This document shows, in pieces, positions 49,320 to 58,246 of a stretch of 64,000 bases of DNA. The position numbers and the translations under genes are program-made. The notes beneath the pieces are model-generated. The model had not been told where the DNA came from and made no database searches. It saw nothing but the letters and a program-made list of their open reading frames with translations. Location: the NCBI RefSeq assembly GCF_004791695.1, contig NZ_SRSO01000003.1:1-64000 (forward strand). The letters run 5' to 3'. Positions within the stretch are counted from its first letter, which is position 1, and the number at the start of each line of letters is the position of its first letter. The stretch is from Flavivirga rizhaonensis (GTDB taxonomy: Bacteria > Bacteroidota > Bacteroidia > Flavobacteriales > Flavobacteriaceae).

Positions 49320-52300
49320 TTAAAACCCAAAGCCCATTTTAAAAGCTAAACGCAGACCATCATCACTATTAAATGCCGATAGGTTTAGGGTAACCATATC
49401 TGCTGCATTAGCAAAAATACCACCACCAATAGACGTATTCCAATTATCTGAATGGTCATTTGGATTTAATAAAAAGTCATCATCAACCCAAATGCGTCCA
49501 TAGTCTACTCCGCCATAAAATCCGATATTTAAAGGTAATAATCCTGTTTTTACTTTGCGTAAATTTAATCGAATATCGGTACTTTGTACAAAAGAACTTT
49601 TACCTGTAAATCGTTCGTTCCTATACCCTCTTAAACCATTATTAGCTCCAATATTAGCGCCTTGATAAAATTCAAATTCATCTCCAAAATTAATATGCCC
49701 TTTCAACTTTGTTGCTAACACTAATTGCCCGCTAGGTATTAACTTATAATCGAAGGCTATTTCCGGAATTAGATATGCAAAACCTTTAGATTCATCCAGA
49801 TTATTTTTATATCCTGTTTGAAGTGCTATCATCATGCCTAATGTTGGAAATGCTTCATTATCGTAATTCTCATAATGATATTTAGCATCAATACCGTAAT
49901 AGTCATTATCAATTTCTGTATTATCTCCAATAAATTGATCGTTTATAAACCGTCCTTCAGTTTCTTCTACTTCATAAGATTCATATAATAATCCAATTTT
50001 AAAACTAGCGCCTAAACGACCTCTCCAAACTAAAGATGGTGAAAATTTTAGAGTTTCCAATTTTACACGATTATAATCTAAACCCACATCTAAACCATCA
50101 TTTTCGTCTGCTTCCGGGTTTGGTGTGTTATTACCGAATCCGAAAAAGTTAATAGCATAATTAGGGCTTGTAAATTGAGCCTGCAAATTTAAATTCATAT
50201 TCCCAACAACTTTTGCAAATTCCCCGTTATATCCAAAATCAAATCCTTGTGTTGCAAAATAATAGGCTCCGGAAACAATGTGTTTAGATGTAAAAGGATT
50301 ACGCATAAAACCGTAATTAGTTAAGGTATTAGAAAACCCTATTTTAAGTCCATCGTCTGGATTAGACCCTAAAGTAGGCATTAATTGATTGCTGCTGTTT
50401 TTCAGCTTTTTATAATCATAAACATTTGTTTCATAGTCATCTGTAAGTTGTTTTCGCCCTTTATTTGTAGCAAATGTGTTCTCTTTAGATTTGTAATCAT
50501 AAATATTGACACGCTTACCGTTTTTGATATTATAAGTATCATTATTCTGGCCTCCTATCAATCGTATTTTTATAAGCTTATTACCTGTTCCAAAAATTTC
50601 GAATGTATCGTCATCATCTAATCCATAAATCCATATTTCTTTAGTGTTAATACAGGTATACATTCTTTGATGAAATACATCTGCTTTTTTCCCATCTTTA
50701 ATTCTATAAGCTGTTACTTTAGTATTTCCCTGAGGCATACGTTCTATTTGAAACCAATCGTCTTTATCTGTGCCTTTAATAACGGCGAACTTACTAATAT
50801 GATCGTAATATGTATCAGAAATCGTTTGTAGGTTAGAACGTCTTCCTTTAAGTTTACGCTTAATGTCTTTTATACTTTCCTTGCTAACTTCGGGTGGGAA
50901 ATTTAAAAATGCTTTGTCAATTATGGCATCCGATAGATTCTCTACAATATACTTTACCTGAGCATCCCAAACACTTTTATCAGATTCATTGATTAAAGTC
51001 ATATCTAAAGGGTAAGGTTCTAAATTGAACCATTTTGGGCTTTTTAATTCTTCTTCGTAACTCTGTAATAAACGTAACGAAGGTACTATAGTCGTTGCTA
51101 AACCAAGTAAAATACCGTCTGCCATAATAGAAAATGCTTGATCACGATCTCTTGGTACTGGGCGATACATTCTTTTATCTTCTTCTTTAAATTCTGCCCA
51201 ACGCCATTGATCTTCGTGTCTATCCCAATCACCAATCAGCATATCAAATAAGCGTGCTCTTATGTAAGCGGCTTCATCTAAAACATGATCTTCGTCTTCT
51301 TTTAATTCCTTTAGTAAATCGTCTGTGCTTATGAGTTCATCCGAAAAACCAAAACTAGCTTTATCGCCATGACCAGAACTAGCACGTTCTTCAATCATAT
51401 AAAGTTCGTTTCCAAACTCACTATTAAATTGACCTAGGGTCGATTGCTTTGGCACATAATAAAGCACTGGATTTGTATGGTAAACGCCAACGGCATCAGA
51501 TAACGTTCCTATTGTAAAAGGCGCATAAGGGTGAGATCCTGTAAAAACATCGAGCAGAAGTCCTTCTGTATAAGAATCATTAAATTGGCCTTCTATAAAT
51601 TGATCTTTAAATCCCACTGCTTGTATATATTGAATGGCATTTTTACGAAGTGCTCTCATAACATACTCCCTCCCCTTAGCATCTTTCAATCGTAAAGATT
51701 TTGATTGATGTCCACCTCCTTTTCTAACTGGGGTTAATCCACCAAAAAGAGTATCGAGTCTTACTGCAGGTGCTTTAACTTTGGTACTAAATTCATCTCG
51801 GTAGCGTTTACCCCAAAACATTTTATAAGCACCTCCTTTAGTGGTTTCTTCTTCAGAATAAACAGAGGCCACTACTTCTTTTTCAGTATTATCTTTGTAA
51901 TCTTTAATCGTTTTTATTTCTTCTGCTTCTAAAACCTGTGTTTGAAACACAATAGTATTACCTTCTGCTGAATAAAAGCGAACATGGGATGAACCATCTT
52001 TAAACACATCTAGTCTTGCATACCCTTGAGTACTATAGGAAAATTGACCATTTCCCACATTACGAACGGCCATTTCTTTAGAGCCAGATCCGCTTACAAT
52101 TTGAGGTAAATTATCTTGAACGATGTATTGTAAGTTATGATCGTGTCCAGATACAAAAACAACTTTATTATTTTCCTGAGATAATGTAATGATGCGTTTT
52201 CTAAATTCATTATACATCTTATTTTGCACATCTACAATCGTTACTCCTCCTGTTTTACGGATTAAGTTTTTAAGAGTCCCTAAAACAGGAATAGGTTTCA

Positions 52301-53024
52301 TATGGCTTTTAAAAGAATACTGTCCGCCATGGGAACCATTAGTAAACATAGGATGATGTATAGCTACAATGGTTGTTTTTCCTCTTGCTTTCTTTATTTC
52401 ACTTTCAAATTCATCAAAAAACTTGGTTCTGGTTTTTATTTCGCAATCATCGTTTATTGTCGGGTGCTTGTTCCAGTCTGTTAAATACCACTCCGAATCG
52501 ACCACAATCATAACGATATCATCAGATATCTTTACTTTTTCAATAGGGCACCCATTTTCTGGTAGAAATGTATTCTTACCTAGTTTTTTTTCAACGTATT
52601 TTTCTTGTCTTTTAAGTCCTTTTAACCCATTGTTGTACCAATCATGGTTTCCTGGAATAAAAACCGTTTTCCCTTTAAAACCTTCTACTGCTGCTGTTTG
52701 AATATTTAGTTGATGTTCTGCAAATGCTCTCCCTTCATCTTCTTTTTTTGGTAAACCTTTTGGGTAGATATTATCTCCTAAAAAAAGTGCTGTGCTATTT
52801 TTTGAAGCTTTACTTAAGGCTTCCTTAAATGATTGTAGTGCTTTCGAAGATGTTCCTAAAGATGAATTACCAGCATCTCCAATTAAATAAAACGAATGCA
52901 TAATTTCCTTATCTGGAAAAGAAGAATTTGTATTTGCAGTATTAAATTGTGGTTTATATGTAGCGCAAGCGCTGAATATAAACATGACGACTAAAGTTAG
53001 GACTATTCTATATTTAGTATCCAT
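49320..53024 (-). CDS. Metallophosphatase / kinase-like / Omp85-barrel fusion lipoprotein
   Basis: 1234 residues from the ATG at 53024, which yields a lipoprotein signal (lipobox FSAC); the frame opens at 53069. Calcineurin-like phosphatase domain, about 40-330: GDAG (49-52), GDNIYP (83-88), GNHDW (125-129), IHHP and GHDHN (293-297). Middle domain, about 420-720: it contains LFDMLIGDWDRHEDQW (Asp601) and PRDRDQAF (about 624-631), resembling catalytic and metal-binding loops of FAM20C/HipA-type kinases. A Gly-rich block precedes MRALRK. A short beta stretch with GLDDDD and GGQNNDTYN follows. The last ~340 residues are an Omp85-like barrel (GLRGYRNERFTG, final MGFGF). The phosphatase and barrel are clear; the kinase resemblance is inference. 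Confidence 0.82.
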   Translation of the reverse strand: MDTKYRIVLTLVVMFIFSACATYKPQFNTANTNSSFPDKEIMHSFYLIGDAGNSSLGTSSKALQSFKEALSKASKNSTALFLGDNIYPKGLPKKEDEGRAFAEHQLNIQTAAVEGFKGKTVFIPGNHDWYNNGLKGLKRQEKYVEKKLGKNTFLPENGCPIEKVKISDDIVMIVVDSEWYLTDWNKHPTINDDCEIKTRTKFFDEFESEIKKARGKTTIVAIHHPMFTNGSHGGQYSFKSHMKPIPVLGTLKNLIRKTGGVTIVDVQNKMYNEFRKRIITLSQENNKVVFVSGHDHNLQYIVQDNLPQIVSGSGSKEMAVRNVGNGQFSYSTQGYARLDVFKDGSSHVRFYSAEGNTIVFQTQVLEAEEIKTIKDYKDNTEKEVVASVYSEEETTKGGAYKMFWGKRYRDEFSTKVKAPAVRLDTLFGGLTPVRKGGGHQSKSLRLKDAKGREYVMRALRKNAIQYIQAVGFKDQFIEGQFNDSYTEGLLLDVFTGSHPYAPFTIGTLSDAVGVYHTNPVLYYVPKQSTLGQFNSEFGNELYMIEERASSGHGDKASFGFSDELISTDDLLKELKEDEDHVLDEAAYIRARLFDMLIGDWDRHEDQWRWAEFKEEDKRMYRPVPRDRDQAFSIMADGILLGLATTIVPSLRLLQSYEEELKSPKWFNLEPYPLDMTLINESDKSVWDAQVKYIVENLSDAIIDKAFLNFPPEVSKESIKDIKRKLKGRRSNLQTISDTYYDHISKFAVIKGTDKDDWFQIERMPQGNTKVTAYRIKDGKKADVFHQRMYTCINTKEIWIYGLDDDDTFEIFGTGNKLIKIRLIGGQNNDTYNIKNGKRVNIYDYKSKENTFATNKGRKQLTDDYETNVYDYKKLKNSSNQLMPTLGSNPDDGLKIGFSNTLTNYGFMRNPFTSKHIVSGAYYFATQGFDFGYNGEFAKVVGNMNLNLQAQFTSPNYAINFFGFGNNTPNPEADENDGLDVGLDYNRVKLETLKFSPSLVWRGRLGASFKIGLLYESYEVEETEGRFINDQFIGDNTEIDNDYYGIDAKYHYENYDNEAFPTLGMMIALQTGYKNNLDESKGFAYLIPEIAFDYKLIPSGQLVLATKLKGHINFGDEFEFYQGANIGANNGLRGYRNERFTGKSSFVQSTDIRLNLRKVKTGLLPLNIGFYGGVDYGRIWVDDDFLLNPNDHSDNWNTSIGGGIFANAADMVTLNLSAFNSDDGLRLAFKMGFGF

Positions 53025-53069
53025 AATGAGGGTTTTATGAAGCATTAAAGGTAATAATTTAAATACCAT

Positions 53070-54293
53070 TTAATCATTTACGATTGTTGTATTAAAAACG
53101 ACTTCGCTGGCAATGGTTTTGTGCACCGGACATTTTGAAGCTATTTCTTTTAGGCGTTCTTTTTGTTTTTCATCTAAGTTGCCAACAAATTTCAGCTTTT
53201 TACTAATATGATCCAAGTAAGTCGGAGTTTCTATTTCTAGGCCTAAATCGTCACTATGCTTTCTGGAATGTGTTACATATACAAATACTTCTTGTAAATC
53301 CCATTGCTTACGCTGTGCATACATTTTCAAGGTCATAGCAGTACAAGCAACCAGACCTGCATTGAGATATTCATACGGAGAAGGTCCAAAATCATCACCT
53401 CCAACAGAACTAGGTTCATCTGCAATCATGGTATGCTTTTTAGTTTGAATAGAGGTTGTAAAATTATCTTCAACTAAATTTAAATGTCCTACTAATTGCT
53501 CACCTTTAGTTTCTAGCATTTTATTTTCTTTAAGTTCAAAATATCGCTGAACCCAAGTACCAATTACATTTCCTGCATATTTACTATCATTGGGGTTAGA
53601 TAATAAATGATCTGCATCATCAAGCGTTACAAAACTTTTTGGGTGATGTGCATGATGGTATAACTGTTCTGCATTTTTAATACCCACAACGGTGTCTGTG
53701 GGCGCATGCAGAATTAATAATGGTTTCCGTAATGTCTTTACAATGGCAGGCAAATCTGTTTTATCAAAATCTTCTACAAAGTCTTTATTAATTTTAAAAG
53801 GACGTCCTCCAATATTAACTTCTACTTCACCCTTTGTTTTAACCTCATCAATACCATGAGAAAATAAATGGGTAACATGACCTACTGTTGCAGGTGCTCC
53901 AATGGTTGCTATGGCTTTAATATTATCCAATTGGGAAGCTGCCGACAATACAGCAGCTCCTCCTAACGAATGGCCAACTAATAGTGATGGTGCTTCATAA
54001 TGAGTGTCCATATAATTACTTACGGCTATTAAATCCTCAACATTAGCAGAAAAATGACTTTCTGCAAACTCGCCTTCGCTTCTGCCCAAGCCTGTAAAAT
54101 CGAATCTTACAACTCCAAAACCATGATTTGTTAATGCGCGACTAATATTTTTTACGGCACTTAATGAGCTAGTACATGTAAAACAGTGTGCAAAAATGGC
54201 AAAGTAATTTGGTTTTTGATTTGCTGGTAATTCTAAATATGCCTGAAGTTTTAAGCCTTTGTTATTTTGGATATTTAGTTTTGAACTTTTCAT
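53070..54293 (-). CDS. Bifunctional alpha/beta-hydrolase and OsmC-family protein
   Basis: 407 residues. The N-terminal alpha/beta hydrolase (about 1-255) has HCFTC near the oxyanion region, nucleophile Ser in VGHSLGGAA, Asp in [10 protein letters not shown] and His in DDADHLL. The C-terminal OsmC/Ohr-like domain (about 270-407) has [24 protein letters not shown] and KCPVHKTI, with the two Cys typical of peroxidatic OsmC proteins. The fusion is a known arrangement. Probably detoxifies organic hydroperoxides and cleaves an ester or thioester. It lies next to the methionine sulfoxide reductase genes, supporting a stress role. Confidence 0.9.
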
Positions 54294-54304
54294 CTATAAA
54301 ATCT

Positions 54305-54832
54305 TTATACTGTAGTCGTAACTAAATGTGCTACTTTACTTTGGTTAATTTGACAAGAAAATTTTTGCATTAAGTATTTTAACTTGGGGTCGATAAATGT
54401 TTTACAAAAAGGTTTATTAGGATTCTTTTGATAGTAATTTTGAATAGCTTCTCTTGAGGCTTTGAAGGACTGAAAAGGATATACTTTAGTGATTAACTTA
54501 TACTCAAAATCTTTCTGAAAACTTTTAATAATATCTTCTGATTCCTTTTTTTGTTCTTCTGAAAATGCATAAACAGCAGACCTGTATTTACTTCGCATAG
54601 AGTGATTACTTGTACTTTTATGTGTATGCAAATGAATTTCAATAAGTGTTTTTAATGACATTTCATCCCTATTGAAATGTACAATGATAGCTTCTGAAAA
54701 GTTACTATTTTCTTCTACTGAAGCCACATAACCTTGCTCAACTTTCACGACCCCTTTTAACGATTGAAATACAGCTTCTGTACACCAATGGCAACCACCT
54801 CCCAGGGCTATTTTACTTAGTTTACTGTCCAT
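54305..54832 (-). CDS. Divergent MsrA-like peptide methionine sulfoxide reductase
   Basis: 175 residues from the ATG at 54832; an in-frame ATG at 54844 is also possible. The MsrA active site, normally GCFWC, reads GGCHWC (Cys14 and Cys17), with the methyl-pocket Phe replaced by His. YRSAVYAFSEEQ and PFCKTFIDPKL match the family, but the usual HDPT-type loop is altered (HTHKSTSNHS). It may be a paralogue with changed substrate. Overlaps the glutaredoxin gene by 11 bases. A canonical MsrA is three genes away at 55592. Confidence 0.82.
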   Translation of the reverse strand: MDSKLSKIALGGGCHWCTEAVFQSLKGVVKVEQGYVASVEENSNFSEAIIVHFNRDEMSLKTLIEIHLHTHKSTSNHSMRSKYRSAVYAFSEEQKKESEDIIKSFQKDFEYKLITKVYPFQSFKASREAIQNYYQKNPNKPFCKTFIDPKLKYLMQKFSCQINQSKVAHLVTTTV

Positions 54833-55076
54833 GTAAATTTGCAATACGTTTGTTCAATTCTTTATCAGATGGATTTCTTAGTTTCTTTTTACCAATTGTT
54901 ATTGTTGGAAAATTAAGTTTCCTATTTTCATATAAACCTCGCAATTCTTCAGTGAAAGCATCATTAGTTTCTACATCAAGAAACACGTAATTTAAATTAC
55001 GTGTTTCAAAAAATGCCTTATAATATTGCGTTTTATGGCACCTAGCTGCACCATAAAGTTTAATGACTTTTTTCAT
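54822..55076 (-). CDS. Glutaredoxin-like protein, single active-site Cys
   Basis: 84 residues of glutaredoxin fold: KVIKLYGAARCHKTQYY at the start, FLDVETNDAF, and TITIGKKKLRNPSDKEL. The active site is CHKT, with only the first Cys, so a monothiol-type mechanism is likely. It lies between the redoxin and divergent MsrA genes and could supply electrons to MsrA. It joins the redoxin gene with no gap. Confidence 0.82.
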   Translation of the reverse strand: MKKVIKLYGAARCHKTQYYKAFFETRNLNYVFLDVETNDAFTEELRGLYENRKLNFPTITIGKKKLRNPSDKELNKRIANLHGQ

Positions 55077-55568
55077 TTAATCAATCGTTTTCAAAAAATT
55101 GATTGCTGCATCTGGATTCAAATGAAAATCTGAAAAGACTACATTATCATGTTTGTCAATAAAAATAAACCAAGGGGTTCCTCCTGTTTGATAGTTAGTC
55201 ATCATATTTGATCGTGACTTGCCATCATCTCCCGCATCATGCCCAAATGGTATTTTTAAATCATACTTTTTCTGCGTTTCTAAAATTTTCTGATAGGTAT
55301 TGTCATGATGGCCTTCAAAAACAGTTTGTATAGCCAAAAAAGTAATATTTGGACATTCTTTTAAAGCTTCTACCATTTTTTTAAGATCTGGTAATCCTTT
55401 ACTATGACATCCTGGGCACCAACTTTGAAAACAGTATACTATTTTAAGTTTACCTTTAAAATCTGAAAGTTTTATGGCTTCCGTTTTATTCCCATTAGCG
55501 TCAATCCAATCATTGATATGGAATTCCGGAGCATTAAACACTTGTTCTTGCTCTGTATGACTTGACAT
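55077..55568 (-). CDS. TlpA/AhpC-type redoxin
   Basis: 163 residues of thioredoxin fold with active site SWCPGCHSKGLPDL and conserved cis-Pro segment GGTPWFIFID. There is no signal peptide, so it is cytoplasmic. The CPGC site supports thiol-disulfide exchange, perhaps recycling MsrA/MsrB or OsmC. In the msr operon, 23 bases after msrA. Confidence 0.87.
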   Translation of the reverse strand: MSSHTEQEQVFNAPEFHINDWIDANGNKTEAIKLSDFKGKLKIVYCFQSWCPGCHSKGLPDLKKMVEALKECPNITFLAIQTVFEGHHDNTYQKILETQKKYDLKIPFGHDAGDDGKSRSNMMTNYQTGGTPWFIFIDKHDNVVFSDFHLNPDAAINFLKTID

Positions 55569-55591
55569 TAAAATGGCCCTTTCTTTTTTAA

Positions 55592-56131
55592 TTATTTTAA
55601 TTTATCTGCATGAAGTTTACGCAGTTTTGCCAATTTAGGCGTAATTACAAAGCTACAATATCCTTGTTCCTGATTATTTCTATAGTAATCTTGATGATAG
55701 TCTTCTGCTTCATAAAACACATCTAAAGGGCTAATTTCTGTAACTACTGGATTTTCATAATAAGGAGCTACTTCTTTTAAAACAATCTCTGCAATGTCTT
55801 TTTGCTTTTCATTATGATAATAAATCACCGATCGGTATTGTGTGCCTTTATCTGCTCCTTGTCTGTTCAAAGTTGTGGGATCATGAGTTGTCATAAAAAT
55901 AACTAATATCTCCTCATAAGAAATTACATGAGCATCAAATGTTACTTGAACGACTTCAGCATGTCCTGTTAAACCTGAGCAAATCTCACGATAAGTTGGA
56001 TGTCCGGGGGCATCACCTCCTGAATATCCAGACACCACTTTTTCAACGCCTTTAACTTCTAGAAATACAGCTTCTGTACACCAAAAACAACCACCTCCAA
56101 ATGTGGCTAACTGCATATTTTTATTTGTCAT
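55592..56131 (-). CDS. msrA: Peptide-methionine (S)-S-oxide reductase MsrA
   Basis: 179 residues with the canonical [17 protein letters not shown] (Cys15, Cys18), [30 protein letters not shown] and [10 protein letters not shown]. It reduces S-epimer methionine sulfoxide in proteins. Length and motifs are normal. MsrB lies upstream with a repeat in the gap; redoxin, glutaredoxin and a second MsrA follow. Confidence 0.95.
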
Positions 56132-56167
56132 TCTTTATCCTTCCGTCTAAATATTTAGAAATTAAAT

Positions 56168-56240
56168 GTCACGTTGAGCGCAGTCGAAACGATTTCAAGA
56201 CGGATCTTAATCAACCCTTCGACTGCGCTCAGGGAGACAG
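56168..56240. repeat. Palindromic repeat in the msrB-msrA gap
   Basis: GAGCGCAGTCGAA (56176-56188) and TTCGACTGCGCTC (56218-56230) form a perfect 13-bp inverted repeat around about 29 bases. In transcripts it would form a strong hairpin between msrB and msrA and may affect readthrough or RNA stability. Short open frames over it are not genes. Confidence 0.7.
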
Positions 56241-56356
56241 TAGAACTATCATTTTCAATTACGCCTTTTCATCCGCTAGTTAAAAAATTTAACAAAGGTC
56301 TCGAACTGACATCCAAATACTATTTAGACTATCTCAATTTATTAAACTTTAAATTT

Positions 56357-56818
56357 TTATTTGTCATTAATGGCCTCCTTTTCTAATTGCATAGATTCAG
56401 AATTGATACAATAACGCAAACCGCTAGGCTCTGGTCCATCTGGAAATACATGTCCTAAATGAGCGTCACAAGTATTACACATCACCTCTACACGTACCAT
56501 TCCAAATGCTGTATCTTTTTCATACTTAATGGCATTAGCTTTTATAGGCTGTGTAAAGCTGGGCCAGCCTGTTCCTGAACTAAATTTAATAGTAGAATCG
56601 AACAAAGGTGTATCACAACAGACACAGTTATACTTACCTGCCTCATGTGTACTACAAAGCGCACCACTATGTGGACGCTCTGTTCCTTTTTGTCTGGTGA
56701 TTCTAAATTGCTCCAGGGTTAATTGAGCGCGCCATTCTTCATCTGTCTTTTCAACACGTTTATCTGGAGTAGGGTTTCCTTTTACAGAAAAATTAATGAT
56801 GTCCTTCCAAGTTAGCAT
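56357..56818 (-). CDS. msrB: Peptide-methionine (R)-S-oxide reductase MsrB
   Basis: 153 residues. The zinc-binding pairs CVCCDTPLF-type and CNTCDAHLGH are present, with SSGTGWPSF and the catalytic RYCINS. It repairs the R-epimer of methionine sulfoxide, complementing MsrA downstream. First gene of the minus-strand oxidative-repair cluster; about 213 bases to the divergent HD/PycTM gene. Confidence 0.95.
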   Translation of the reverse strand: MLTWKDIINFSVKGNPTPDKRVEKTDEEWRAQLTLEQFRITRQKGTERPHSGALCSTHEAGKYNCVCCDTPLFDSTIKFSSGTGWPSFTQPIKANAIKYEKDTAFGMVRVEVMCNTCDAHLGHVFPDGPEPSGLRYCINSESMQLEKEAINDK

Positions 56819-57031: not shown

Positions 57032-58246
57032 ATGGACAATCTTATTGCTGAAGCAGAAAAATATGTTATTAAATATTTAAACGATAACCTTGATAACAAA
57101 TTTATTTATCATAATTTATCTCATACACAAAGTGTAGTAAAAAAAGCGAATGAACTGGCCGAGCTTTCAAATTTAAAAGAAACTGACAAATCACTTTTAC
57201 TATTAAGTGCCTGGTTTCATGATACTGGCTACACCAAAAGCATAGATAATCATGAAGTTGAAAGTGTAAAAATTGCGGAGGCTTTTCTAAAAGATCGTAG
57301 TGTACCTGAAAATGATATAAAAACTATATCTGACTTGATTTTAGCTACTAAAATGAAATACGTACCTAAAAATCAGCTAGAAAAGATAATAAGGGACGCT
57401 GATTGTGCTCATATAGGAAGTAAAAGGTTTATTGACATTACTGAGTTACTTAGAAAAGAATGGGAGATTGCCTGTAATAAAACACTTAGTGAAGAAGAAT
57501 GGTTAAGCATGAACATTGATTTTTTATCTAATGATCATAGGTTTTACACTAATGAAGCTTCTGCAAAATGGGACAAAATGAAGAGTAAAAACCTCTCGCA
57601 ATTATTGAAAGCTCAAAATAAATTAAAGCAAGACAATACAAAACTCAAGCATAAGAAAGAGGAATTACATTTTAAAAAGAATAAAGTGGCACTCCCAGAG
57701 CGTGGTATTGAAACCATGTTTAGGGTGACCCTTAAAAATCACATTACTTTAAGTAATATTGCCGACACGAAGGCTAATATTTTATTATCGGTTAATGCTA
57801 TAATTGTCTCCTTAGTCCTTTCTAATTTAGTTTCAAAACTAGACAATGCTTCAAATCAATATTTAATTGTTCCCACGATTATTTTTGTATTGTTTACAGT
57901 TGTATCTATAGTATTGTCTATTTTAGCTACGCGCCCAAATGTTACAAGTGGCAAGTTTACCAAAGAGGATGTTGCTAATAAAAAAGTAAACTTATTATTT
58001 TTTGGTAACTTTCATAAAATGAGCCTTAAAGATTTTGAATGGGCCATGGGAGAAATGATGCAGGATAGAGACTACCTGTATTCTTCTATGAAAAAAGATT
58101 TATATTTTCTTGGATTGGTTTTAGATAAAAAATATAAAATACTTCGTCTAACTTATAGCGTATTTATGATAGGCATTATAGTGAGTGTTCTTTCTTTTGC
58201 TATTGCTTTTCAGTTTTTTTCTGGTGCTGCTTTTACTTCATTATAA
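57032..58246 (+). CDS. HD-domain and PycTM (Pycsar effector-type) membrane protein
   Basis: 404 residues. An N-terminal HD phosphohydrolase domain (about 1-150) has metal ligands His27, His63-Asp64 (WFHDTGY) and Asp122 (IIRDADCAHIG). A charged, probably coiled linker (about 180-222) leads to a PycTM-type domain (about 223-398). That domain starts ERGIETMFRVTLKNHITLSNIADTKA-like and has helices at about 248-268, 277-299 and 373-397. PycTM domains are membrane-disrupting effectors in Pycsar anti-phage systems, gated by cyclic nucleotides. No cyclase gene is adjacent, so defence is not shown. The pentapeptide-repeat gene follows 17 bases later. Confidence 0.85.
   Translation: MDNLIAEAEKYVIKYLNDNLDNKFIYHNLSHTQSVVKKANELAELSNLKETDKSLLLLSAWFHDTGYTKSIDNHEVESVKIAEAFLKDRSVPENDIKTISDLILATKMKYVPKNQLEKIIRDADCAHIGSKRFIDITELLRKEWEIACNKTLSEEEWLSMNIDFLSNDHRFYTNEASAKWDKMKSKNLSQLLKAQNKLKQDNTKLKHKKEELHFKKNKVALPERGIETMFRVTLKNHITLSNIADTKANILLSVNAIIVSLVLSNLVSKLDNASNQYLIVPTIIFVLFTVVSIVLSILATRPNVTSGKFTKEDVANKKVNLLFFGNFHKMSLKDFEWAMGEMMQDRDYLYSSMKKDLYFLGLVLDKKYKILRLTYSVFMIGIIVSVLSFAIAFQFFSGAAFTSL

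Follow-up and report, generated by a model that had tools for sequence, protein, structure and literature searches.

The window (the whole stretch of 64,000 nucleotides that was analysed) encodes an outer-membrane protein in which a predicted phosphatase and a predicted kinase are joined to a barrel. The order of its domains is lipoprotein signal, purple-acid-phosphatase-type domain, kinase-fold domain, beta domain and 16-strand Omp85 barrel without POTRA (Table 1); the AF2 model of residues 35-1234 has a pLDDT of 85.0 and a pTM of 0.84. We tentatively propose, giving it slightly less than even weight, that the protein is a writer/eraser pair at the periplasmic side of the outer membrane. We infer an enzyme anchored by both lipid and barrel, whose two soluble domains would face the periplasm: the atypical kinase (writer) would put phosphate on an envelope substrate, protein or lipid/glycan, the phosphatase (eraser) would take it off the same substrate, and the barrel would serve as anchor or docking site. 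No ATP supply is known in the periplasm, and the phosphate donor is a serious problem for this proposal.

Table 1 Features of the gene and its product.
Feature	Residues	Position in window	Strand	Basis
Whole gene, 1234 aa		49320..53024	(-)	Open frame; AF2 model of residues 35-1234
Signal peptide and lipobox	Cys20	52965..53024	(-)	Sequence and aligned relatives
Purple-acid-phosphatase-type domain	39-370	51915..52910	(-)	PF00149, fold match, conservation
Kinase-fold domain	413-744	50793..51788	(-)	AF2; Foldseek and VIA-align
Gly-rich loop GGLTPVRKGGGHQ	428-440	51705..51743	(-)	G428, G429, G436, G437 conserved
Candidate nucleotide-binding Lys	Lys461	51642..51644	(-)	End of third N-lobe strand; conservation
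Catalytic loop DMLIGDWDRHEDQWRW	594-609 (Asp601)	51198..51245	(-)	D601 conserved; Fam20C match end
Candidate metal-binding motif PRDRDQAF	624-631 (Asp626, Asp628)	51132..51155	(-)	D626/D628 conserved
All-beta linker domain	745-860	50445..50792	(-)	Secondary structure of AF2 models
16-strand Omp85 barrel	877-1234	49323..50396	(-)	16 model strands; BamA match

Three elements named in a first-pass annotation of this DNA, a lipoprotein start, a calcineurin-like phosphatase at the front and an outer-membrane barrel at the back, are borne out. The lipobox (FSAC) has its Cys in a column shared by 157 of 171 aligned rows. Because it fits the Met at 53024, which gives 1234 aa, this start is preferred over an alternative in-frame ATG upstream at 53069 (+15 aa). 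PF00149 matches residues 45-296 (E 1.1e-8) and, among the families compared, the model of this domain matches human purple acid phosphatase 2bq8 over 269 residues (Z 28.9, 20% identity). All five metal-ligand motifs are present, including the Tyr (GDAG, GDNIY, GNHDW, HHP, GHDH), and conservation over 94 rows gives D50, D84, Y87, N126, H127, H224, H294 and H296 as candidate site residues. By fold and motifs the N-terminal domain is a purple-acid-type phosphatase of predicted activity; it shares fold, motifs and Tyr with the mammalian tartrate-resistant (purple) acid phosphatase but is fused to a kinase fold and a barrel. The 16-strand barrel model matches BamA 9cs2 (Z 22.7, again among compared families) and carries the LRGY loop motif (R1132, in 171/171 rows) and a C-terminal Phe, while NCBIfam Omp85_fam scores 45 bits, under its cut-off of 200. 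The RGY/F loop motif has a role in the Omp85 superfamily.

The fusion of phosphatase and Omp85 barrel is already known, and the kinase domain is the new part. The 'Metallo' Omp85 subfamily (Heinz & Lithgow 2014, PMC4104836) likewise joins PF00149 to an Omp85-type barrel and, as defined in the portion of that paper available to us, includes the window protein by architecture. There the PF00149 part is named a metalloprotease domain, whereas here it is of the purple-acid phosphatase type and a kinase fold lies between it and the barrel. The word 'kinase' is absent from the main text of PMC4104836. Of the new phosphatase/kinase/barrel device claimed in the first-pass annotation, the phosphatase-barrel part was thus already listed, and it is the kinase for which that source, as available, holds no mention. 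Likewise, no paper in the literature search results was recognised as a description of the family's kinase domain; term searches within texts covered PMC4104836, PMC10281475, PMC7948968, PMC9758233, PMC12611786, PMC12578637, PMC12045153 and PMC12419801 and stopped short of the Riemerella metallophosphoesterase paper (PMC8208144).

Of the genomes sampled, 110 of 149 from Flavobacteriaceae and 135 of 296 from Bacteroidota contain a homologue in one architecture or another. The modules are separable and recombining. Among 143 module-bearing ORFs, which come from chosen loci and not from a random sample, 39 are middle-barrel proteins without phosphatase, seven are phosphatase alone and four are middle alone. 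Three adjacent genes encode the modules in two genomes (L109, L111); two others (G295, G422) have phosphatase alone and kinase-barrel elsewhere in the genome.

Copies were scored for both sites in 128 genomes, with frames read stop to stop. In 32/32 multi-copy genomes exactly one fetched copy is phosphatase-intact and at least one is kinase-intact; 'exactly one' applies to fetched copies, since nine of the 32 (G007, G013, G027, G031, G075, G078, G097, G101, G125) have one match beyond these. The two intact sites lie on different copies in 10 of the 32. Where one copy was scored, both sites are fully intact in 85 of 89 genomes and three are one residue off; among these 89, G262 additionally encodes a kinase-only protein (L122) and G360 carries a broken fragment. 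The matches in G059, G079, G106, G124, G047 and G099, which were split, edge-cut or weak, were left unfetched, and a second match in seven genomes is without a listed position. The sole exception among examined Flavobacteriaceae genomes is G060, with one copy that has neither site.

Every tandem array fetched (8/8) shows a reciprocal split of the sites. GGGHQ is altered in all eight phosphatase-intact tandem copies, with two Gly remaining in one. Their altered kinase keeps D601 in 8/8 and K461 in 7/8, and may therefore be changed, not dead. Altered kinase sites are found in 12 of 42 middle-barrel or middle-only rows. The tree places four phosphatase-loss and three kinase-loss events, so few that copy counts overstate independence. 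Both sites appear to be under selection, and the pattern suggests that they matter separately and, within Flavobacteriaceae, as a set. Three genomes (G150, G294, G392) have a phosphatase-only protein and no detected kinase domain; G321 and G373, outside Flavobacteriaceae, each carry just one copy, in which the phosphatase site is altered, and a search for another phosphatase homologue in them found none. With one function alone in genomes outside the family, pairing is not obligatory.

These data bear on an alternative in which the substrates differ: the phosphatase would scavenge phosphate or strip nucleotides, the kinase would be unrelated, and the fusion would provide a common anchor only. 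The modules that occur singly and the three phosphatase-only genomes are what it would predict, and purple acid phosphatases can have broad specificity. The same three modules are nevertheless repeatedly fused or adjacent, and both sites are found in every multi-copy genome examined, which makes different substrates unlikely. The paralogue split of the two sites is a natural experiment, and co-retention of both enzymes, usual in the relatives examined, hints at unrecognised on/off switching of molecules in the envelope. A wider proposal is possible but clearly more doubtful than the pair itself, namely a reversible-phosphorylation circuit in the Bacteroidota outer membrane with one shared eraser per genome, one or several barrel-anchored writers and an undiscovered periplasmic donor. 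Should a kinase-fold enzyme indeed be held next to a phosphatase in the outer membrane, a major bacterial phylum would control phosphorylation beyond its cytoplasm. This raises a testable question: does the Bacteroidota periplasm contain a phosphate donor and a phosphorylated substrate?

For the middle region, the first-pass annotation had proposed a FAM20C/HipA-like kinase, to be checked by structure prediction, fold search and conservation of the Asp residues. The AF2 model is confident (pLDDT 89.9, pTM 0.90). Its top PDB matches by Foldseek and VIA-align, in a ranking that covers the compared families, are atypical kinases: PI4KIIbeta 4wtv (Z 15.7, 258 residues, 4.3 A), CotH 5jd9 (Z 14.7), CtkA 3akk (Z 13.6), HipA 4pu5 (Z 11.4) and Fam20 4kqa (Z 10.6). 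Asp601 sits in LFDMLIGDWDRHEDQW; this residue and Asp626/Asp628 in PRDRDQAF are where the annotation had placed them, and its 'Asp624' is Pro624. Over 129 middle regions, taken from chosen loci, K461 is conserved in 123 rows, D594 in 128, D599 in 126, D601 in 121, D626 in 121 and D628 in 119, so that K461, D601, D626 and D628 are each found in 92-95% of homologues; G428, G429, G436 and G437 are present in 118-124 rows. Gly-rich G436/G437, Lys, catalytic Asp and metal Asp follow kinase order, in 91-95% of rows. Conservation figures are drawn from this alignment because alignment A1 (41 of 58 non-redundant regions) omits most altered-site rows and some others, which biases its invariants; A2 holds the window and 70 of 80 regions, and A3 the window and 59 of 63, with rows that begin at the frame start. 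Loss of K461 always comes with loss of D628 (4/4 cases; Fisher p 1.2e-5) and is associated with loss of D601 (Fisher p 4e-4), in both tests with two gapped rows dropped and the remaining rows related.

The site has one departure. Kinases usually have an Asn after the catalytic Asp, and Gln606 stands in its place. This, together with a periplasm that has no obvious ATP supply, would suit a kinase fold that catalyses a different reaction, such as AMP transfer or amino-acid ligation, or that acts just as a sensor binding nucleotide or substrate, leaving the phosphatase as the sole phosphate enzyme. FAM20C, however, is also without that Asn, and the Gly-rich loop, Lys461, Asp601, Asp626 and Asp628 occur together in kinase-intact copies; we regard other chemistry as quite unlikely, although AMPylation and polyglutamylation by pseudokinases are on record in titles cited in PMC7948968.

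The side of the outer membrane on which the enzymes lie was addressed through the barrel, the lipid anchor and the relatives. POTRA, which many Omp85 members have, is absent from the AF2 model, where just an all-beta segment lies ahead of the barrel; a noNterm Omp85 group without N-terminal extension is described in the available part of PMC4104836. An acidic export signal was not found at positions +2 to +6 after the lipid Cys in the 171-row alignment, 156 of 157 Cys-bearing rows having 0-1 acidic residues there. In relative L122 the kinase-only protein is carried on an N-terminal membrane helix. Taken together, these three observations make the periplasmic face likelier for the soluble domains as modelled, and the 'cell-surface' location given in the first-pass annotation finds no support. 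Surface display would follow the patatin-Omp85 protein PlpD (type Vd), which also has an enzyme N-terminal to an Omp85 barrel and is described, in what is available of PMC4104836, as delivering its enzyme domain outward. PlpD combines POTRA with patatin, whereas the window protein has two other enzyme-like domains and in its model lacks the POTRA between passenger and barrel; assignment as a type Vd autotransporter was rejected. In L109, moreover, each module is a gene in its own right and, judged by eye, begins with a signal-like stretch. A type-V-like barrel that displays both enzymes on the cell surface is improbable.

By its modelled fold and conserved site, the middle region represents a new family within the kinase-like superfamily. 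It does not belong to Fam20C or HipA, and PI4K-II and CotH are structurally closer to it than either. Fam20C (PF06702) gives no match for the window protein. Its profile matches in two of 247 genomes, both within relatives of the window protein, at 17.4-20.4 bits against a cut-off of 26.8, and both matches stop at the catalytic loop. Sequence comparison with Fam20 4kqa aligns DxLIGxxDRH (E 0.022), and an unrelated binding protein scores better. Fam20 kinases (FAM20A/B/C) share the kinase fold, this loop and a place outside the cytosol, but have conserved disulfides, whereas residues 413-744 of the window protein contain no Cys. HipA (PF07804) has no Pfam match in the window protein, HipA_C does not figure in the list of 25 families obtained for 41 members, and hhalign against HipA has the catalytic Asp in register at a probability of 1.1% (P 0.047). 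CotH (PF08757) has no Pfam match and an hhalign probability of 0.2%, outside the kinase core. None of the hhalign comparisons with HipA, a HipA-like family and CotH is significant; the Asp is in register in two of the three. PI3/PI4 kinase (PF00454) does not match the window protein, and its five weak family-search matches are in other proteins. PI4K-II, CtkA, HipA and CotH are the nearest folds (Z 11-16), at 8-15% identity and with other partners and another compartment. Of the kinase relation first claimed, the fold stands and FAM20C/HipA membership does not.

Pfam and NCBIfam give no match in the central part of the window protein, and matches resemble chance both in a profile search of this region against PDB sequences and among the families listed in the 41-member scan; profiles by themselves give no significant link to kinases. 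These blanks notwithstanding, an accidental resemblance is very improbable indeed, given that a confidently predicted structure finds kinases as its closest PDB matches among the families compared and that Lys, catalytic Asp and metal Asp lie in kinase order on matching elements and are jointly lost.

A scan for promoters and terminators gave matches no commoner than by chance. Relatives were found on five plasmid records and on no viral contig or phage record. Gene neighbours at 80 loci indicate no clear function. Among these loci, whose lengths differ, an HD-domain membrane protein has homologues at 64 and a propeller-like lipoprotein at 56 (both named by sequence reading), an unidentified 798-aa protein at 54 and the directly upstream gene at 15.

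The gene, an open frame on the minus strand, encodes a protein of 1234 residues that begins, by eye, with a signal peptide and the lipobox FSAC (Cys20). A phosphatase at the front and an outer-membrane barrel at the back had been recognised in the first-pass annotation and both are borne out. PF00149 (calcineurin-like phosphoesterase; residues 45-296, E 1.1e-8) is the sole Pfam match, and the full-length model (residues 35-1234, pLDDT 85.0, pTM 0.84) matches human purple acid phosphatase over 269 residues (Z 28.9, 20% identity); the domain retains all five metal-ligand motifs as well as the Tyr. The barrel, a sub-threshold NCBIfam match to Omp85, has 16 strands in the model, matches BamA (Z 22.7) and has no modelled POTRA domain ahead of it; the Arg of its LRGY motif is present in all 171 aligned homologues. 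The window genome holds one copy, Flavivirga amylovorans is the closest named relative among the matches listed (92% identity across the middle region), and homologues occur in 110 of 149 Flavobacteriaceae and 135 of 296 Bacteroidota genomes.

The region between phosphatase and barrel is predicted with confidence to adopt a kinase fold (AlphaFold2, residues 381-850, 71 sequences, pLDDT 89.9, pTM 0.90), and atypical kinases are its first structural matches. Foldseek placed the Helicobacter kinase CtkA (E 9.6e-6) and CotH (7.6e-5) at the top, then Rio2, ADCK3 and PI4KIIalpha (2.2e-4), with Fam20C lower (3.7e-3) amid ordinary protein kinases. VIA-align, which re-aligns Foldseek's candidates and is not an independent candidate set, gave PI4KIIbeta as best (Z 15.7, 258 residues, 4.3 A), with CotH at 14.7, CtkA 13.6, HipA 11.4 and Fam20 10.6, against a best Z without a clear match of typically 7-8, or 14 for mostly helical models. 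The alignment covers model residues ~33-364, or protein residues 413-744.

The suggested likeness to FAM20C and HipA holds for the fold and a weak Fam20 loop match and fails for family membership. Over 247 phylum genomes the Fam20C Pfam model gave two matches (20.4 and 20.3 bits, cut-off 26.8), both among relatives of the window protein; the match terminates at FDMLIGDWDRHQ. When one of these relatives was searched against the PDB, Fam20 4kqa came second (E 0.022), aligned at the FDMLIGDWDRHQ loop, and FAM20C 5yh3 fourth over the identical stretch (E 0.57); the top match (E 0.0022) is to a binding protein and appears fortuitous. HipA and CotH profile comparisons gave no significant match. Within the kinase-like superfamily the middle region thus forms a new family, close to Fam20, HipA, PI4K and CotH but outside each of them.

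The putative active site is well kept across 129 aligned middle regions: G436 in 118, G437 in 120 and K461 in 123 (N-lobe); D601 in 121, R602 in 124, H603 in 118 and Q606 in 121 (catalytic loop); and the candidate metal ligands D626 in 121 and D628 in 119. The two Asp motifs, previously lined up by eye, are therefore conserved. In the AlphaFold2 model the third N-lobe strand ends at Lys461, the DWDRH loop follows helix 584-597 and the next hairpin leads into PRDRD. With two gapped rows left out, D628 is lost in all four rows without K461 versus 5 of 123 with it (p 1.2e-5), and D601 in three of four versus 4 of 123 (p 4e-4); these p-values are indicative only because the rows share descent. At locus L097, 7 bases separate an intact copy from one whose kinase site is degenerate, recalling the FAM20A/FAM20C pseudokinase-kinase pair. 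Four phylum-level proteins (L123-L126) form a possible separate pseudokinase clade: their loop reads GDGDR[LQM]..QW, and the two metal-Asp positions are occupied by R and Y.

The strongest functional hint is the distribution of the two sites among gene copies. The scoring covered eight residues of the phosphatase site and ten of the kinase site, in 170 copies drawn from 128 genomes that are nearly all Flavobacteriaceae. Both sites are fully intact in 85 of the 89 genomes with one scored copy and one residue off in three; in the other, G060, neither is intact. Seven genomes with an unplaced second match each hold an intact copy. Of the 74 copies from the 32 multi-copy genomes, 40 have an altered phosphatase site and an intact kinase site, 10 the reverse, 21 keep both intact and 3 show other patterns. 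Among the copies fetched, each of the 32 genomes retains the phosphatase site in exactly one and the kinase site in at least one, and ten genomes have the two intact sites on separate copies; shuffled phosphatase labels gave exactly one per genome in 15 genomes on average (maximum 26). Each of the eight tandem arrays fetched holds one copy whose phosphatase ligands are complete but whose catalytic loop reads DWDRE..HW or ..YW, with the Gly loop altered too; in the copies next to it the kinase site is intact and several phosphatase ligands are lost. The altered kinase of these copies may be changed rather than dead, since all eight keep D601 and seven keep K461. On a tree built without the scored columns the phosphatase site is lost only four times and the kinase site three times, so few independent events underlie the one-phosphatase rule. 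Within the family, selection acts on each site by itself and on the pair, which suggests that both are probably catalytic.

Pairing is not a fixed feature of the phylum, as single-module genomes and altered sites outside the family indicate. There, 24 of 29 three-module proteins keep the two sites intact; the phosphatase site is altered at L060 and L090, whose genomes (G321, G373) gave no second phosphatase homologue in a homologue search, and both sites are altered at L095 and L096, whose genomes hold an intact copy elsewhere (L077, L086). No kinase domain was detectable in G150, G294 and G392, which have a phosphatase-only protein. Among 42 middle-barrel or middle-only rows the kinase site is intact in 28, altered in 12 and one residue off in 2.

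Module searches of loci L001-L132 found 87 phosphatase-middle-barrel and 39 middle-barrel proteins, with phosphatase alone in 7, barrel alone in 6 and middle alone in 4. At L109 and L111 each module has a gene of its own, the three lying side by side as middle, phosphatase, barrel; by listed starts, L109 has a 13-base gap at the first junction and a 4-base overlap at the second. Their phosphatases match PF00149 (E 2.3e-8 and 1.6e-6) and their barrels PF01103 Omp85 (7.7e-13 and 2e-11); this phosphatase type only remotely resembles that of the window (E 8.2e-4 in G201, no match in G393). By eye, the middle genes have lipoprotein-like starts (L109, L111), an ordinary signal peptide (L119) or an N-terminal membrane helix (L122). 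The middle region is thus a module that can stand apart, and it is exported in the forms inspected. The genome of L122, G262, also encodes the full protein.

Positions of the features discussed (L, loci with relatives of the window protein; G000, window genome)
Feature	Position	Strand	Basis
Phosphatase-kinase fold-barrel gene	window 49320-53024	minus	
Hydrolase-OsmC-like fusion	window 53070-54293		by eye
Methionine-sulfoxide-reductase-like cluster including the fusion	window 53070-56818		by eye
Methionine-sulfoxide-reductase-like genes	window 54305-54844, 55592-56131, 56357-56818		by eye
HD-domain protein	window 57032-58246		
Three-gene form	L109:5051-9097, L111:4838-8793	one strand each	module searches, Pfam
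Degenerate beside intact kinase site	L097:1876-7090		
Kinase-only relative, 423 aa	L122:6382-7653		
Head-to-tail arrays, two or three copies, sites split between copies	L260-L267		
CotH-type kinase matches	G000:C7:56615-57607, G000:C92:106988-108001		

Surface lipoproteins of Bacteroidota usually bear an acidic patch after the lipid Cys. This patch is absent (0-1 acidic residue at +2 to +6 in 156 of 157 rows with Cys20), which makes a periplasmic face more likely than the cell-surface location first proposed. We infer that the kinase domain, tethered to the outer membrane, would phosphorylate an envelope substrate and the phosphatase domain would remove the phosphate; further gene copies would add writers while a single eraser is retained. 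The substrate may be a protein, by analogy with Fam20C, or a sugar or lipid, by analogy with the xylose kinase Fam20B or with PI4K-II, which phosphorylates lipid. The barrel would most simply be an anchor or docking surface. The main objection is that no ATP supply is known outside the cytoplasm, so that a periplasmic donor would be required.

The PF00149-Omp85 fusion is already known as the 'Metallo' group (Heinz & Lithgow 2014, PMC4104836), where the domain is termed a metalloprotease, the membrane side is left open and the word kinase is absent from the main text. A survey of the Legionella kinome (PMC9758233) illustrates how distant kinase families are recognised and counts FAM20 as one of the clusters confined to eukaryotes or Metazoa. 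The literature searches brought up no description of a kinase domain in 'Metallo' proteins; that domain, the writer/eraser architecture and the splitting of sites between copies are new here.

The methionine-sulfoxide-reductase-like genes and the hydrolase-OsmC-like fusion lie directly upstream of the gene. Beyond them is an HD-domain protein with membrane helices predicted by eye, a homologue of which lies near relatives of the window protein in 64 of 80 loci. Two CotH-type matches suggest that the window genome may encode further exported atypical kinases.
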